Below are positions 23,433 to 46,083 of a stretch of DNA of 64,000 bases, in pieces. Origin of the DNA: Chitinophaga pinensis. Its GTDB lineage: Bacteria > Bacteroidota > Bacteroidia > UKL13-3. The stretch's first letter is position 1. Each line of letters begins with the position of its first letter. Where the stretch lies: assembly GCA_945870425.1 (NCBI GenBank), contig CAMBSD010000002.1, positions 124,001 through 188,000 of the forward strand, written 5' to 3'. The position numbers and the translations under genes are program-made. Below the pieces are notes generated by a model. That model was not told the DNA's origin and did no database searches. It was given only the letters and a program-made list of their open reading frames with translations.

Positions 23433-24452
23433 TTAATAGGTATTTGGGTCTGCAAATCTCCGATCGTGAAGGTAATCCATATCTGTTAAGGTTTTTAAGA
23501 ATGCTATTAATTCGGTCTTTTCAGAGTCATCAAACTTCTTGTTACTACAAGATTGTGATGCTGCATAATGATTCATTACTTCCTTCAAATTTCTGTACCT
23601 TCCATCATGCATGTATGGGTAAGTCATTTCAACATTTCGCAAACTTGGGGTTTTGAACTTAAAATAATCTTCTTTAAAAGATGTAATAGTCATTCTCCCG
23701 TTATCGTTTAAATTAGAATCTGGTTTCAAGCCAATATTGTAGTAATTATTATCTGTAAATAGAGGTGGTGGATGACAAGTAACACAATTGCTTTTAAAAA
23801 GATTCAAACCTTTTTCCTCAATGCTAGTAAATGTATCTACTCCTGCTATAAATTTATCATATCTTGAGTTACAAGAAATCATCAATGATAAGAATTGAGA
23901 TAGTGATTTCATCAGCATTTCTGTAGTAATTGTAGAGTCTTGAAAAGCTTTATAAAACATCCGTTTATAGGTAGAATTAGCTTGCAACTTCTTTATTACA
24001 TTCGGTAGGTTTTCTCCCATTTCAGAGACACTTGTGATAGGTGCAAGTGGTTGTAAATCCAAATGATTAATTGCTCCATCGGCCATAAAAGCATCTTTCC
24101 AAATTAAGTTCTGAAGTGAGGGTACATTCCGGATACCTAACCTCCCTCCTATTCCATGGCTTAATGGATGGTCAATATGAGCAAATGCTGCAAACTGTTG
24201 GTGACAAGTAGCACAACTTGTAAAATAATCAGCCGATAAAATTGGATCATAAAACAATTTGCGCCCTAAGGTAAATCCCTCTACACTTGGTTTGTTTTTA
24301 GACAAATCATAAAAAGGCTTTGGAAAACCCTTCGGATTAACAAATACTATATCCTTGTTGGTGATTTTAAAATATGGATTTTCATCCATAATAAATGCTG
24401 ATAGCAATACAAAAAATAAAATAGATGAAAGAATTAGCAACTTTGGCTTCAT
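23433..24452 (-). CDS. Di-heme cytochrome c peroxidase/MauG family protein (MbnH-like)
   Basis: A 339-residue exported protein with a signal peptide (MKPKLLILSSILFFVLLSAF). It has two haem c sites, CATCH near residue 80 and CVTCH near 222. Conserved blocks of the family are present: GIGGRLGIRNVPSL, SVSEMGEN, TPSLRNV and PYMHDGRY. The family includes H2O2-reducing peroxidases and MauG/MbnH enzymes that oxidise protein Trp. The MbnP-like gene 21 bases upstream makes an MbnH-like role (oxidising a Trp of the partner) the better guess. The ATG at 24452 was taken rather than a TTG six codons earlier, because it begins the signal peptide. Confidence 0.85.
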   Translation of the reverse strand: MKPKLLILSSILFFVLLSAFIMDENPYFKITNKDIVFVNPKGFPKPFYDLSKNKPSVEGFTLGRKLFYDPILSADYFTSCATCHQQFAAFAHIDHPLSHGIGGRLGIRNVPSLQNLIWKDAFMADGAINHLDLQPLAPITSVSEMGENLPNVIKKLQANSTYKRMFYKAFQDSTITTEMLMKSLSQFLSLMISCNSRYDKFIAGVDTFTSIEEKGLNLFKSNCVTCHPPPLFTDNNYYNIGLKPDSNLNDNGRMTITSFKEDYFKFKTPSLRNVEMTYPYMHDGRYRNLKEVMNHYAASQSCSNKKFDDSEKTELIAFLKTLTDMDYLHDRRFADPNTY

Positions 24453-24473
24453 AGTAAATTCAGTTTCCAATTA

Positions 24474-25217
24474 CTATTTAATTACACTAAACATATCTGC
24501 GTAGTTATCAGCTATCATAGTAGCATTGTTAAAATCAGTTACTGATGAAAGTTCTTTAAAATCAATACTTTTAGGTGTTTTTAAAACCTCTGAAATATCA
24601 ACTAATATGGATAAAAAATCTGCATCATCACCTACCTTTTGGAAAGATTTTTCAGTTAAATCTAAAGTTACTTGCCTTATGCAATTATTGGGTTGTTTAA
24701 ATCCACCAATATGATATTCAAAAATATTAGATGGTGATTTTGAATAGGTAGATTTCCCCTCTAACTTTAAGAAAATATAACCTGTATTCCATGCCCAAAA
24801 CATTCCTTTTACTGGATCTAAAACTCCTTTTTGCAATCCACTGCAATTGCGCAAACTATCTACTCCAATTGTGAAAGAAATTGATGAATAATAGCCCTTT
24901 TCATGAATTACGATTTGTTGTGATTCTTGATCTTCTGCATCTATCAGAAAATATTCATTTGAAACGTACTCAGTTCCATCTTTTCTCTTTAACTTTATAT
25001 TGCTGATATAATACCTAAACTTACTAATGCTGTAACTTTGCTTAAATTCATTTTTATACATTAGTGAATCTAAAATCAATTTATCATTTCCTACAAAATG
25101 ATTAAATTCAATTACTAAAGAATGTCCATTTTTGATCTCAGAGAATTTGAATGAAAACAAAAAAAATAAGCCTATCGTAAATAGGCTGTACTTAAATATT
25201 GCTCTTTGGTATTTCAT
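24474..25217 (-). CDS. MbnP-like protein (putative copper binding)
   Basis: A 247-residue protein with an N-terminal hydrophobic export signal. The mature part carries what I recognise as MbnP family features: FRYYISNIKLK near residue 70, GVDSLRNCSG, GVLDPVKGMFWAWNTGYIFL and EYHIGG. In Methylosinus the MbnP protein binds copper after its partner MbnH turns a Trp into kynurenine; GMFWAWNTG offers candidate tryptophans here, which is inference. No lipobox is seen. It lies between the YHYH gene (58 bases up) and the di-heme gene (21 bases down), probably in one transcript. The ATG at 25217 fits a signal peptide better than one ten codons earlier. Confidence 0.8.
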   Translation of the reverse strand: MKYQRAIFKYSLFTIGLFFLFSFKFSEIKNGHSLVIEFNHFVGNDKLILDSLMYKNEFKQSYSISKFRYYISNIKLKRKDGTEYVSNEYFLIDAEDQESQQIVIHEKGYYSSISFTIGVDSLRNCSGLQKGVLDPVKGMFWAWNTGYIFLKLEGKSTYSKSPSNIFEYHIGGFKQPNNCIRQVTLDLTEKSFQKVGDDADFLSILVDISEVLKTPKSIDFKELSSVTDFNNATMIADNYADMFSVIK

Positions 25218-25275
25218 TACTCCAAAACTATTGAAAATATTATACATCGCAACAATTTACTAAACTGTAGTTGCA

Positions 25276-26520
25276 TTATTTAGTTTTTAGAAACTTATGA
25301 ACCACTTTTTGGTTATCCGTTTCAAGATACAAGAAATATAGGCCATCTTGATAGTTTGACAAATCAAATGAATAGGCGATACTAGGCTGAACAAAATCTC
25401 GTTTTTCAATTAAACTTCCTTTGCTATCAAAAATACTAGCTTTCACATTGTTAATACTATTTTCATCCATATAAATATGCAAATAATCGCTGCTTGGATT
25501 TGGCAATATTCTATATTGTATTTTATTCGAAATATTATCTATGCCAGTATTAGTTCCATTGTAAACAGTTGTTGCTTCTGAAATGGTAACATGACCTGAA
25601 CCTGGACCTGTATTACCTATTTGAACTGTGCCATAATAAGTATCACCGATAACGAATGGGTAAACGGGTTTCAAATTGACATCTATAGTTACGAAATAGG
25701 CATAAATTCCATTAGGGTATTCTGGTGTTTGGCAGAAACGTCCATTGTGTTCATCTAAATCACCTAACCCTTGCACATATTCCCAATCTTGAAGAAAATT
25801 GCCAATAGGGTATGTAGAATTTATAGCAGGTCCTACTTTTGAAGCTATATTACCATTTGGCAAAGTAGTTCTTTGGGTAATATTCCTTGTACGAAAGGAA
25901 GACACCATTCGTTTAATAGCACCCGTGCCATCGATATTGGTGTATGCGTATGCCCCATAAACAGGATAACCATCAAACATATATCCAATAATGGGCGAAT
26001 GATGTGTGCTGTCTTTGTCATTATATAAGCATGTAGGATTCACATGATGATGATATTCGCCTCTTTGCTGTGGATGTCCCAAACAATTATCAAAACTAAC
26101 TCCTTCATACACCAATGCATTACGTTTCCAAACCCCTTCATTGTTATAGGTCATAGCATCCCAAGCATTATCAATACTCACACCATTACTCCATATGCCC
26201 ACATGCCCAAGTCCTACATTAGTTAATGTGCCTGTGTTAGGTTTAGGTTTTCTGGTTATCTTAAATACAAAATTTTGGTTTATCGGAATATTGGGGTTAT
26301 TTAACCAAGGACCAATACTGTATCCAGGAATACAAGAACAACTTACGTATACATTATCAGCTGAATACTGCACTTTTTGAACATTTGCACTGATATTATT
26401 ATATCCAGTTAAACCAGTCGTATTTCTAACCCAAGATGATATTTCAGGGGTTACAGGCTGTGCTGCCAAAAAATGCATAGCAGCCAAGAAAATAGCAATG
26501 CTTGTAAAAAATTTCTTCAT
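25276..26520 (-). CDS. YHYH-domain protein with T9SS C-terminal sorting domain
   Basis: A 414-residue secreted protein. It has a signal peptide (MKKFFTSIAIFLAAMHFLAAQ). A YHYH-type domain has the signature GEYHHHVNP near residue 167, with GYMFDGYPVYGAY and DEHNGRFCQTPEYP further on. The last about 75 residues are a Por/T9SS type A sorting domain (YRILPNPSSDYLHIY to KFLK). YHYH proteins are of unknown function but carry many possible metal ligands (His clusters, CSC). With the MbnP-like and di-heme genes behind it, a metal-related role at the cell surface is plausible. The ATG at 26520 begins the signal peptide. Confidence 0.85.
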   Translation of the reverse strand: MKKFFTSIAIFLAAMHFLAAQPVTPEISSWVRNTTGLTGYNNISANVQKVQYSADNVYVSCSCIPGYSIGPWLNNPNIPINQNFVFKITRKPKPNTGTLTNVGLGHVGIWSNGVSIDNAWDAMTYNNEGVWKRNALVYEGVSFDNCLGHPQQRGEYHHHVNPTCLYNDKDSTHHSPIIGYMFDGYPVYGAYAYTNIDGTGAIKRMVSSFRTRNITQRTTLPNGNIASKVGPAINSTYPIGNFLQDWEYVQGLGDLDEHNGRFCQTPEYPNGIYAYFVTIDVNLKPVYPFVIGDTYYGTVQIGNTGPGSGHVTISEATTVYNGTNTGIDNISNKIQYRILPNPSSDYLHIYMDENSINNVKASIFDSKGSLIEKRDFVQPSIAYSFDLSNYQDGLYFLYLETDNQKVVHKFLKTK

Positions 26521-26545: not shown

Positions 26546-26574
26546 GAATACAAATAACATAAAAACTTTTGCTA

Positions 26575-26600
26575 CCAATGAAATATATTTTTTTCATTGG
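26575..26600. promoter_or_regulatory. Dyad CCAATGAAA-N8-TTTCATTGG between divergent genes
   Basis: A perfect 9-bp inverted repeat in the 137-base divergent region between the YHYH gene and the DUF5329 gene. Size and place suit an operator; no regulator gene is adjacent. Confidence 0.5.
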
Positions 26601-29945: not shown

Positions 29946-31949
29946 TTATTTTTTGATAAACTTAACAGTAAATGCTTCGTTTGCTTCATCAATAACTGAT
30001 AACATATACATTCCAGCTGCTAATTCTGAAACATTGATTTCATTAATATTTGTAGTTCCAACTTTCACAACATCTCCAGTTAAATTCATAACCTTAAAAG
30101 TTACTGCTGCAAAATTCAAGTTAGAGTTAGTTATTGAAATTTTTTCAGTTGTAGGATTAGGATAAACTACAACTTCATTAGATGAATTCTCATCAGCAAT
30201 TTTGATGGTGTTTGAATACTTGTATTTACCATCAAAATCTACCATTTTTAATCTATAATATCTGATAGCTTGTTTGCTTGCTGCAAAATCAACAAATGAG
30301 TAGGCTATTAACTTATTTGTATTTCCAAAAGCTCTAACAGTACCAATCTGATTAAAGACACCACCATTATCCATTCTTTCAACTTGGAATTCTTTGGCGT
30401 TGATTTCGCTAGCTGTTTTCCAATTTAACTCTACAGAAGATGCTTTTTTAGCACCAGTGAAAGACATTAAACTGATAGGTAAAGTTCCTGAGCTAGCAAC
30501 TCCAAAAGAATTAAAACTACTGTATAATACAACACCATTTAAAGTTTGTATATAGGGTGATGAGCCTGAAGCAGCAGTTTGAGCAGCTGGTATCCATTTA
30601 CCTAAATTATTAATATATGATATATATGAATTTGATCTGGCGAAAGATGGCAACTCATCAGCTGCATTCCATTGCAAATTCAAAATTAACACAGCAGTTC
30701 CTGGATTATTTTCAGTAATCTTCCAAGTTTTTTTAACAGCATTAGCTGTTAGTCCAGCTCCTGCAACCATGATGGTATCAGCAACCGAAACTTGGAAATT
30801 ATCTGTAAGAGCTAAATTTTGAAGAGTAGCAGGATTATAGCCAGTTGCTGTTCCAACAGGGAAAGTAACAGGTGTCGCTCCAATGTTGCTCATATTTAAT
30901 GTACCTGTACCATTTGTAACAATATATGAAGTTGAACTGCCATTAAATCTTTTTGCCGAACTTCCCATTATCAAATTATTATTTGATAAAAACATATTTC
31001 CATTGGTTAAACTCAATGTATCGTTAACAGTTAAACTACCGCCTAATGCTAGCCCTAAACTACTATTAATAGCTACCCTATTGGCTACCAAGGCACTATT
31101 AGTAGTTTGCCTAGTAAAGGCATTTCCCAAAAATCGAATAGTACCAGCAGAACTAGACAAAACACCATTTGCAAAAACATTTCCAGATACATTTAGAATT
31201 CCTGAATTTAAGGTATGAGTGGTGCCAGACCACAAATTATAATGTCTACAACTAAAACCGTCCGCAACGATTCCAGTATAAACAACCGCGTCTAGGGTTG
31301 CTGCAGGTGTGGGCGTTACAGAAGCATTTGTGGTTTGATTAGCAGTTCGCCAAACAGTTCCATTCCAATAGATAGGGGTATAACAAAATGCTTGATTGGC
31401 TAATACTGCTGTAGTTCCTATATTTGATACAACTCCAGCAGAGTTTCCAGAACCATCTGTATAGATAAACCCTGCAGCAGGGGCGGTGGAGGTATATTTC
31501 CAAGCAAATCTTGGAGGAACTGTTGTGGAATATGCTACAGTATTAGTTAAAACTATGGTGAAACATTTAACAACCGAATTAGCTGGAATGGTGGTTCCAA
31601 CGGTAGCACCAACAGTTGTAATAATTTTTCTAAAGTAGGCTGCAGCTGTAGCTGTTTGCTGAGCAAAACTGGCAATACTTGTTTGCTGACTTGCAACCAA
31701 GCCACTTGAAGGCGTTGTAACGGTTAAGGTACCTCTGCGAGACCATGCAGTGTCTATCATAAAAGCAATAGTACCGCCTCTCAACTCAAAGGCCGTAGAA
31801 CCAGTATTATAAATATTCACATCAAATTGATAGGTAGTAGCACTTGTCAATTGCTCATTTTCTAATCTCCACTCAAAAGTGGGTAATTGAGCAAAAGCAA
31901 ACATGCTCATTACAGTTAAAAGTAGGGTTGATAGTAAATTTTTTTTCAT
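29946..31949 (-). CDS. Secreted T9SS-sorted surface protein
   Basis: A 667-residue protein with a signal peptide (to FAFAQ) and a C-terminal Por/T9SS type A sorting domain (VVVYPNPTTEKISI, ending AGMYMLSVID...FIKK). The middle is Thr/Ser/Asn-rich beta sequence with no enzyme motif. The region before the sorting domain (LPISLMSFTGAKKASSVELN, WKTASEINAKEFQVER) is the common pre-sorting FN3-like segment of the phylum. Likely attached to the outer surface; function unknown. It lies behind the giant surface gene, 118 bases apart. Confidence 0.85.
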   Translation of the reverse strand: MKKNLLSTLLLTVMSMFAFAQLPTFEWRLENEQLTSATTYQFDVNIYNTGSTAFELRGGTIAFMIDTAWSRRGTLTVTTPSSGLVASQQTSIASFAQQTATAAAYFRKIITTVGATVGTTIPANSVVKCFTIVLTNTVAYSTTVPPRFAWKYTSTAPAAGFIYTDGSGNSAGVVSNIGTTAVLANQAFCYTPIYWNGTVWRTANQTTNASVTPTPAATLDAVVYTGIVADGFSCRHYNLWSGTTHTLNSGILNVSGNVFANGVLSSSAGTIRFLGNAFTRQTTNSALVANRVAINSSLGLALGGSLTVNDTLSLTNGNMFLSNNNLIMGSSAKRFNGSSTSYIVTNGTGTLNMSNIGATPVTFPVGTATGYNPATLQNLALTDNFQVSVADTIMVAGAGLTANAVKKTWKITENNPGTAVLILNLQWNAADELPSFARSNSYISYINNLGKWIPAAQTAASGSSPYIQTLNGVVLYSSFNSFGVASSGTLPISLMSFTGAKKASSVELNWKTASEINAKEFQVERMDNGGVFNQIGTVRAFGNTNKLIAYSFVDFAASKQAIRYYRLKMVDFDGKYKYSNTIKIADENSSNEVVVYPNPTTEKISITNSNLNFAAVTFKVMNLTGDVVKVGTTNINEINVSELAAGMYMLSVIDEANEAFTVKFIKK

Positions 31950-44648: not shown

Positions 44649-46061
44649 CTATTGCTTAATAAACTTTAGAGCTTTGGAGTAATATTCAGACTGAATTAAA
44701 AGAAAATAAACGCCTGGATTCAATGTTTTAATATCTATCGATTTATCATAGAGAGAATCTATGAATTCCAATTCTATTCGCTCACCCTTTACAGAAAAAC
44801 AATATATTTTCACCTCTTCAATATTTATTCCTTCAAAATTCAAAAACAATTCTTGTTTCGATGGATTTGGATATAAGTGGATGCCAATATTTGAAGTTAA
44901 ATTATCATTACTAACATTAGAAATTGTTGAATCGGGTTTCAAAACAAAAATACCATTCATTCTATCACTTGCAATTATATTTCCAGAAGGAAGAAATGGA
45001 TAAACACCCCAACACCCTTCATAGGTGGGATTAAATATGGTGTCATTTTGCGGATAAGTATCATAAAAGGCAGCTACTCGGGGATTCCTTGGATTGCTTG
45101 CATCCCAGATATATACACCATCCTGATAACTAGATTGATAAATATAATTGTTTACCCAAAAACAATTATGAGGGGTAGCCTTTGGATGAGAATTAAATAA
45201 GCTTAATAATTTGGGATTACGAAAATCACTGATGTCAAATATTTTAGCAGCAAGTCCTGTTGGCACTTCATCATTCACCACAATGTATTTACCTGTTTTA
45301 TCAAGCCAAGAAGTATGATTATAACCAGCTTGCGCATAATTGGTAATAACACCTAATAATTTTTGTTGATTCAAATTAGTCAAATCATAAATAAATAGCC
45401 CTTGATATTCTGCTGAACAATAGGCGGTATCATTTCTTGTAAATACCTCATGAACATTGTTAAAAACGGGTTGACCATTTATTTTTTTGGGAACATCAAG
45501 CCTAGCTAAAAAGGTAGGAATTTCAGGATTTTCAAGAGACAATATATCCATTGCACTGCTAAAAGTAGCGGGTCGCCCGAATTTATTAGAACACATATAC
45601 AAGCGTTTGCTGGCAGACTCTATATGCATACTATGAGTATTCATACCAAGGGTATCACTTTCAAAAACCTTATGAACAGAGTCAGGCAGATATTGCAAAT
45701 CAAAAACCTGAAGGGCTGCAAAACCCTGGTCGGCAACACAATAAGCATAATGACCATATGTCTCGTAATCACGATTGATGGCTCCACGGGCCTTTCCATC
45801 TTCAACAGCAACTAAGGAGATTTTAGTTGGTATTGTTATATCAAAAAAATAGATTGAATCACCTGTGCCTGCAATAGCATATTCACGATTTTTAATACCA
45901 TCATGCCAACCGGTAATCTCATTCCAAATACTTCCCAATCCATCTACCTTAGACAGGTTTGGATTATTCCAATTACTGAGTAAATTGATATGAAATCTAT
46001 TTTGAGATTTGAGAATGCAAAGATTGCAAAATAAGATTAATGTTAATGCAATTACTCTCAT
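44649..46061 (-). CDS. Choice-of-anchor-B/LVIVD-repeat protein with T9SS sorting domain
   Basis: A 470-residue secreted protein: signal peptide (MRVIALTLILFCNLCILKSQ), a beta-propeller-like body and a C-terminal T9SS type A domain (IHLYPNPSKQELFLNF to ALKFIKQ). The body shows choice-of-anchor-B hallmarks: GSIWNEITGWHDGIKNREYA, YFFDITIP, HTSWLDKTGKYIVVNDE and HNCFWVNNYIYQSSYQDGVY. Function unknown; cell-surface location likely. The ATG at 46061 begins the signal peptide; a TTG five codons earlier was rejected. Confidence 0.88.
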   Translation of the reverse strand: MRVIALTLILFCNLCILKSQNRFHINLLSNWNNPNLSKVDGLGSIWNEITGWHDGIKNREYAIAGTGDSIYFFDITIPTKISLVAVEDGKARGAINRDYETYGHYAYCVADQGFAALQVFDLQYLPDSVHKVFESDTLGMNTHSMHIESASKRLYMCSNKFGRPATFSSAMDILSLENPEIPTFLARLDVPKKINGQPVFNNVHEVFTRNDTAYCSAEYQGLFIYDLTNLNQQKLLGVITNYAQAGYNHTSWLDKTGKYIVVNDEVPTGLAAKIFDISDFRNPKLLSLFNSHPKATPHNCFWVNNYIYQSSYQDGVYIWDASNPRNPRVAAFYDTYPQNDTIFNPTYEGCWGVYPFLPSGNIIASDRMNGIFVLKPDSTISNVSNDNLTSNIGIHLYPNPSKQELFLNFEGINIEEVKIYCFSVKGERIELEFIDSLYDKSIDIKTLNPGVYFLLIQSEYYSKALKFIKQ

Positions 46062-46083
46062 ATTTCCTCTTATCAAAAATTAA

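Follow-up and report, generated by a model that had tools for sequence, protein, structure and literature searches.

A YHYH-family protein encoded beside an MbnP/MbnH-like pair in Bacteroidota: a candidate surface metal module

Three adjacent minus-strand genes at 23433-26520 of the window (the whole 64,000-nucleotide stretch of Chitinophaga pinensis DNA analyzed here) encode, in gene order, a YHYH-family protein, an MbnP-family protein, and a di-heme MauG/MbnH-like enzyme. The same three families are found side by side in relatives, in two gene orders. On a slight balance of probability, the trio is an export module for a metal, probably copper, in which a kynurenine-type Cu(I) site is combined with a separately secreted YHYH protein that carries a metal site. 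YHYH as a recurrent third partner seems to be the new part; the MbnP/MbnH pair itself is already known. No report of a YHYH partner of MbnP/MbnH was found in the literature searched, the reach of which stopped short of the main MbnP/MbnH papers.

The genes are closely spaced (Table 1). The gap between the YHYH and MbnP genes is 28 bp, and that between the MbnP and MauG-like genes is 3-21 bp, depending on the choice of start. The YHYH gene begins with an ATG at 26520, and a TTG at 26553 is an alternative. Upstream of the trio lies a divergent DUF5329 gene; downstream, beyond a gap of about 900 bp, EF-Tu and ribosomal genes follow on the same strand. An earlier note, made from the sequence alone, had described this arrangement and had ascribed export signals to all three products, and both descriptions hold. 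The signal peptide of the YHYH protein is clear, and the other two proteins, with alternative starts at 25217 and 24452, have hydrophobic N-termini. The note's assignment of the YHYH protein to type IX sorting is likewise upheld. The C-terminal tail matches Por_Secre_tail (PF18962, 8.7e-13) and scores above the TIGR04183 cut-off. SprA is encoded in the genome, and type IX secretion is therefore plausible.

Table 1. Features of the three-gene locus, in window coordinates.
Feature	Position	Strand	Basis
YHYH-family protein (Sec signal peptide, T9SS type A tail)	25276..26520	-	PF14240, PF18962, TIGR04183, AF2
YHYH domain, residues 97-294	25672..26265	-	Pfam match
T9SS C-terminal sorting domain of the YHYH protein, residues 350-421	25291..25506	-	PF18962
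Candidate metal site segment D155, H160, Y167, H168, H170 (D...H...YHxH)	26044..26091	-	Invariance
MbnP-family protein, likely start ATG 25217	24474..25247	-	PF20243, AF2 match to 7l6g
M149-F-W151-A-W153 motif	24789..24803	-	Invariant in two alignments; D. radiodurans MbnP as bridge to 7l6g
H179, with M149 a candidate ligand of copper	24711..24713	-	Invariant His; ligand role inferred
Di-heme CCP_MauG / MbnH-like enzyme, likely start ATG 24452	23433..24470	-	PF03150, 6e1c match
Heme motif 1, CATCH, residues 86-90	24201..24215	-	CxxCH invariant in enzyme family alignment
Heme motif 2, CVTCH, residues 229-233	23772..23786	-	CxxCH invariant in enzyme family alignment
Y302, at the position of the Tyr that ligates the six-coordinate heme in MauG/MbnH	23565..23567	-	Invariant; aligned with 6e1c Tyr
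A130, MauG Trp93 / BthA Ser257 position, inter-heme Trp missing	24081..24083	-	Pattern scoring and spacing to E150
Perfect 9-bp inverted repeat CCAATGAAA-N8-TTTCATTGG, candidate operator	26575..26600	.	Between YHYH gene and divergent DUF5329 gene

The middle gene encodes a protein of MbnP type, as had been proposed from its motifs. It matches PF20243 at 2.7e-51 (175 bits against a Pfam cut-off of 27). The AF2 model (pLDDT 86.3) is predicted to have the MbnP fold; its fold search returned six chains of Methylosinus MbnP, 7l6g (best E 6.7e-9, TM 0.56), and no other significant match. No MbnP chain came up when the window protein and two family profiles were searched directly against PDB sequences, and the tie to 7l6g is by fold and through a Deinococcus MbnP. 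In MbnP, kynurenine forms from the first Trp of a WxW motif, and Cu(I) is bound through a His and a Met. The D. radiodurans MbnP bridges GMFWAWNTGY of the window protein to GMAWNWQAG of 7l6g. M149, W151, W153, and H179 are invariant among 26 MbnP homologues picked by similarity rather than by motif, and again in a wider, motif-selected second alignment. By alignment, W151 is the predicted counterpart of the Trp that turns into kynurenine, a residue whose retention the earlier note had wished to see checked. Met and His are both present in 51 of the 52 WxW-bearing MbnP proteins at trio loci; in a wider MbnP sample, Asp replaces the His in 12/49. The same genome encodes a second MbnP-MauG pair (L006:472-2287) without YHYH. 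In the MbnP of this pair, MxWxW is kept but the conserved His is replaced by Asp; close to the pair is a TonB-dependent-receptor-like gene.

The third gene encodes an enzyme with two CxxCH motifs that matches PF03150 (CCP_MauG) at 1e-46, in agreement with the di-heme MauG/MbnH-like identity first suggested for it. It could be read instead as an ordinary bacterial cytochrome c peroxidase (bCcP), which would make the cluster an oxidative-stress unit without protein modification. The enzyme and bCcP belong to a common fold family, and redoxins are among the neighbors of some copies. However, when the family alignment was compared with the PDB, 6e1c, presumably MbnH, was the best of all chains and outranked every bCcP chain. 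The Y302 position is Tyr in 52/52 scorable relatives, and canonical bCcP chains differ at this six-coordinate heme position. Moreover, the trio loci always pair the enzyme with an MbnP in which the modified Trp is retained. A plain peroxidase is thus improbable, and the enzyme is of the Tyr-ligated MauG type. The column of the catalytic Glu, E150, is also invariant in the family alignment.

The enzyme departs from MauG at the inter-heme Trp. The window has Ala at this position and the sister species Ser, against Trp in 47 of 55 pattern-scored matches; of the eight non-Trp matches, two (in L129 and L157) either were scored by the pattern at a wrong or out-of-register position or are remoter from the trio. 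A130 sits 20 residues ahead of E150, as S257 sits ahead of E277 in BthA of Burkholderia (6nx0). The BthA report equates Ser257 with MauG Trp93 and describes bis-Fe(IV) as still being formed without the inter-heme Trp (PMC6405878). As BthA shows, enzymes without this Trp can still attain a high-valent state. In the window enzyme, the missing Trp may alter or impair the high-valent chemistry. BthA resembles the window enzyme as a Tyr-ligated MauG-type di-heme enzyme without the inter-heme Trp. It differs in its longer chain and in being a far weaker match than MbnH, and the passages of the BthA report consulted mention no MbnP partner. These observations point to di-heme enzymes of the same family that lack the inter-heme Trp.

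The closest characterized system is MbnP/MbnH of Methylosinus trichosporium (7l6g, 6e1c; TIGR04052/TIGR04039, GenProp0940). Common to both are the predicted MbnP fold, MxWxW with the kynurenine Trp, a two-CxxCH MauG-type partner with a Tyr ligand, and the adjacency of the genes. The window differs in its third gene, YHYH, in the Ala that replaces the inter-heme Trp, and in the lack of methanobactin genes. Its scores also fall under the equivalog cut-offs (44.5 bits against 140 for TIGR04052; 182 bits against 363 for TIGR04039), and the functional identity of the pair is therefore not assured. MbnB (TIGR04159) is absent from the genome, which does not qualify as holding a methanobactin operon. 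The earlier note had proposed a methanobactin-independent version of MbnP/MbnH; as far as MbnB tells, the independence stands. It is not new, however: such pairs outside methanobactin operons and producers have already been described (PMC3621798).

Methanotrophs have surface copper proteins of the kynurenine type, among them MopE/SACCP and CorA/CorB; in these systems a kynurenine lies close to Cu(I), and the protein is accompanied by a di-heme partner (PMC3912023). In sequence, MopE and CorA show no marked similarity to MbnP (PMC3621798). The window differs from these systems in that the candidate kynurenine is in the MbnP protein, whereas the surface protein is YHYH. If oxidized as proposed, the window protein would extend to freshwater Bacteroidota a kynurenine-copper chemistry that has been studied in methanotrophs.

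The first gene of the trio encodes a member of PF14240, a family whose function is unknown and which occurs widely, in bacteria, phages, and diatoms. The match is at 1.1e-51, with 176 bits against a curated cut-off of 25. The AF2 model has a pLDDT of 85.9; the domain is confident, with most blocks above 90. Fold searches of the PDB gave convincing matches for the tail only, to the T9SS C-terminal domains 8gl6 and 8glk, and none for the main domain. The name-giving motif reads YHHH in the window (residues 167-170), and the C-terminal "YHYH" position is YAYF. D155, H160, Y167, H168, H170, and D194 are invariant in an alignment of YHYH proteins and again in a comparison of YHYH proteins of trios with solo ones, and this set includes three His and an Asp (D155, H160, H168, and H170). 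For the YHYH domain, published work on phage proteins predicts a hydrolase function and a Zn site made up of an Asp and three His (PMC7824862). We infer that the four window residues are the ones meant there. Full-text literature searches on YHYH turned up only reports on phages and diatoms, besides unrelated uses of the term. The window protein is like other PF14240 proteins in its domain match and invariant three His and Asp. It differs from the reported ones, which are phage tail fusions or noted for their abundance in diatoms, in its T9SS sorting, its link to MbnP/MbnH, and its YHHH motif.

Two further YHYH proteins have unusual features. The second family member of the same genome (L005:588-1928) is T9SS-tailed, has true YHYH motifs, and contains a MopE-type metal-binding repeat (PF11617, 6.2e-8). 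At L151:6344-8533, a YHYH protein has a long N-terminal part that, judged by eye, may resemble a metallo-beta-lactamase-type domain.

The neighbors of YHYH in relatives include genes of metal regulation. An ECF sigma factor, a small membrane protein, and a Metal_resist protein (PF13801, up to 6e-12) are often encoded directly upstream of YHYH, and this cassette precedes trio and solo YHYH genes alike. In other relatives, T9SS-tailed multicopper oxidases and redoxins adjoin YHYH, and sulfatase and arylsulfotransferase-like genes stand beside some copies. A D. radiodurans plasmid carries an MbnP-MauG pair with CopC and CopD genes after it. On a Deinococcus plasmid (L246:5845-7921), a HupE/UreJ-family gene directly follows the YHYH gene, a hint of metal context. 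CnrYXH is a regulatory system of the ECF sigma type. Several relatives resemble it in having ECF sigma, small membrane protein, and Metal_resist genes in a row upstream; the window differs, as no such cassette is beside its genes. Neither a Metal_resist nor a multicopper oxidase gene was detectable in the window's own genome. The copper link therefore rests on the relatives and on MbnP itself, and their metal context applies to the window trio by analogy only. Because of the invariant three His and Asp and these metal-regulation neighbors, it is plausible that YHYH is a metal-site protein. To this extent the suggestion that YHYH is a third part of the system, possibly a metal carrier, stays plausible.

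The association of YHYH with the pair is recurrent in Bacteroidota. In 58 relatives, 29 full-length YHYH genes were found, of which 20 have an MbnP gene near on the same strand, six do not, and three are cut off by contig ends and were left unjudged. MbnP is thus nearby in 20 of the 26 testable genes, against a chance expectation of roughly 1% or less per gene. As the relatives cannot count as independent, the tree carries more weight than the chance figure. In the tree built from 83 YHYH proteins, the association (trio versus solo) changes at least 11 times, and eight of these changes are forced by well-supported branches. Among the nearest 80 YHYH loci from named genomes, 28 hold the full trio; a cultivable relative that has it is Hymenobacter negativus (L236). 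Both gene orders are common (YHYH-MbnP-MauG in 27 copies, MbnP-MauG-YHYH in 25), and both occur within the supported three-member clade that holds the window. At one locus (L129:4411-12964), two MbnP genes and three MauG-like genes surround a YHYH gene. In an even sample of the phylum (296 genomes), 22 have full-length YHYH, with MbnP nearby in 8/22. In this sample, several YHYH genomes lack MbnP altogether, and the majority of MbnP genes stand without a YHYH neighbor; YHYH is therefore a frequent but optional partner. The adjacency, which the earlier note had wanted to see in more than one genome, is accordingly widespread, and the modified Trp is kept.

This pattern bears on a further possibility, that YHYH is a secreted metal-dependent hydrolase that belongs to the same metal-stress regulon as the MbnP/MbnH pair, with no direct functional link to it. 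The Zn-type three His and Asp site and the hydrolase prediction (PMC7824862) agree with this, as do the presence of YHYH in phage tails and diatoms, the ECF/Metal_resist cassette ahead of solo genes, and the sulfatase and arylsulfotransferase-like neighbors. No substrate is known, however. Moreover, a functional tie is suggested by the many times that the linkage was gained or retained and by its persistence when the gene order changes. A hydrolase of this kind is therefore considered doubtful, though it is the most serious competitor among the three alternatives weighed here.

The linkage also bears on the proposal that the di-heme enzyme has a second protein substrate in YHYH and oxidizes a Trp or Tyr of it before secretion. 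The YHYH gene is adjacent to and tightly spaced with the enzyme gene, MauG-type enzymes modify other proteins, and W41 and W142 of YHYH are nearly invariant. However, W41 and W142 are equally conserved in YHYH proteins whose genes have no MbnP/MauG neighbor, and no Trp is specific to the trio copies. YHYH is widespread without MbnP or MauG and occurs in genomes that have no MbnP gene at all. Trp conservation thus offers no sequence argument for oxidation of YHYH, and leaves oxidation itself conceivable. The second-substrate role, which the earlier note had offered beside that of metal carrier, finds no support here and is unlikely.

The export-module reading can be put as a series of steps. 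The MbnH-like di-heme enzyme would act in the periplasm and oxidize W151 of the MbnP-like protein to kynurenine. The oxidized protein would then hold Cu(I) through M149 and H179. YHYH would cross the outer membrane by type IX secretion, bearing its own metal site (D155, H160, H168, and H170). At the cell surface, it would most likely capture or buffer the same metal and would be no substrate of the enzyme. More tentatively, and with considerably less confidence, the trio may be a three-part Bacteroidota system in which metal passes between the sites of a periplasmic kynurenine-Cu(I) protein and a T9SS-displayed YHYH outer receptor. If true, this would make YHYH a new family of surface proteins that bind copper or another metal. 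The recurrent link to a kynurenine-copper pair gives YHYH a concrete, testable role in metal handling.

The intergenic region upstream of YHYH contains the perfect inverted repeat listed in Table 1, which is present as a single copy genome-wide. Scans for sigma-70 promoters and terminators gave results no better than shuffles. The sister species keeps the repeat with a longer spacer, and the repeat is a possible operator. Elsewhere in the window, two more T9SS-tailed secreted proteins of unknown function are encoded at 29946-31949 and 44649-46076.
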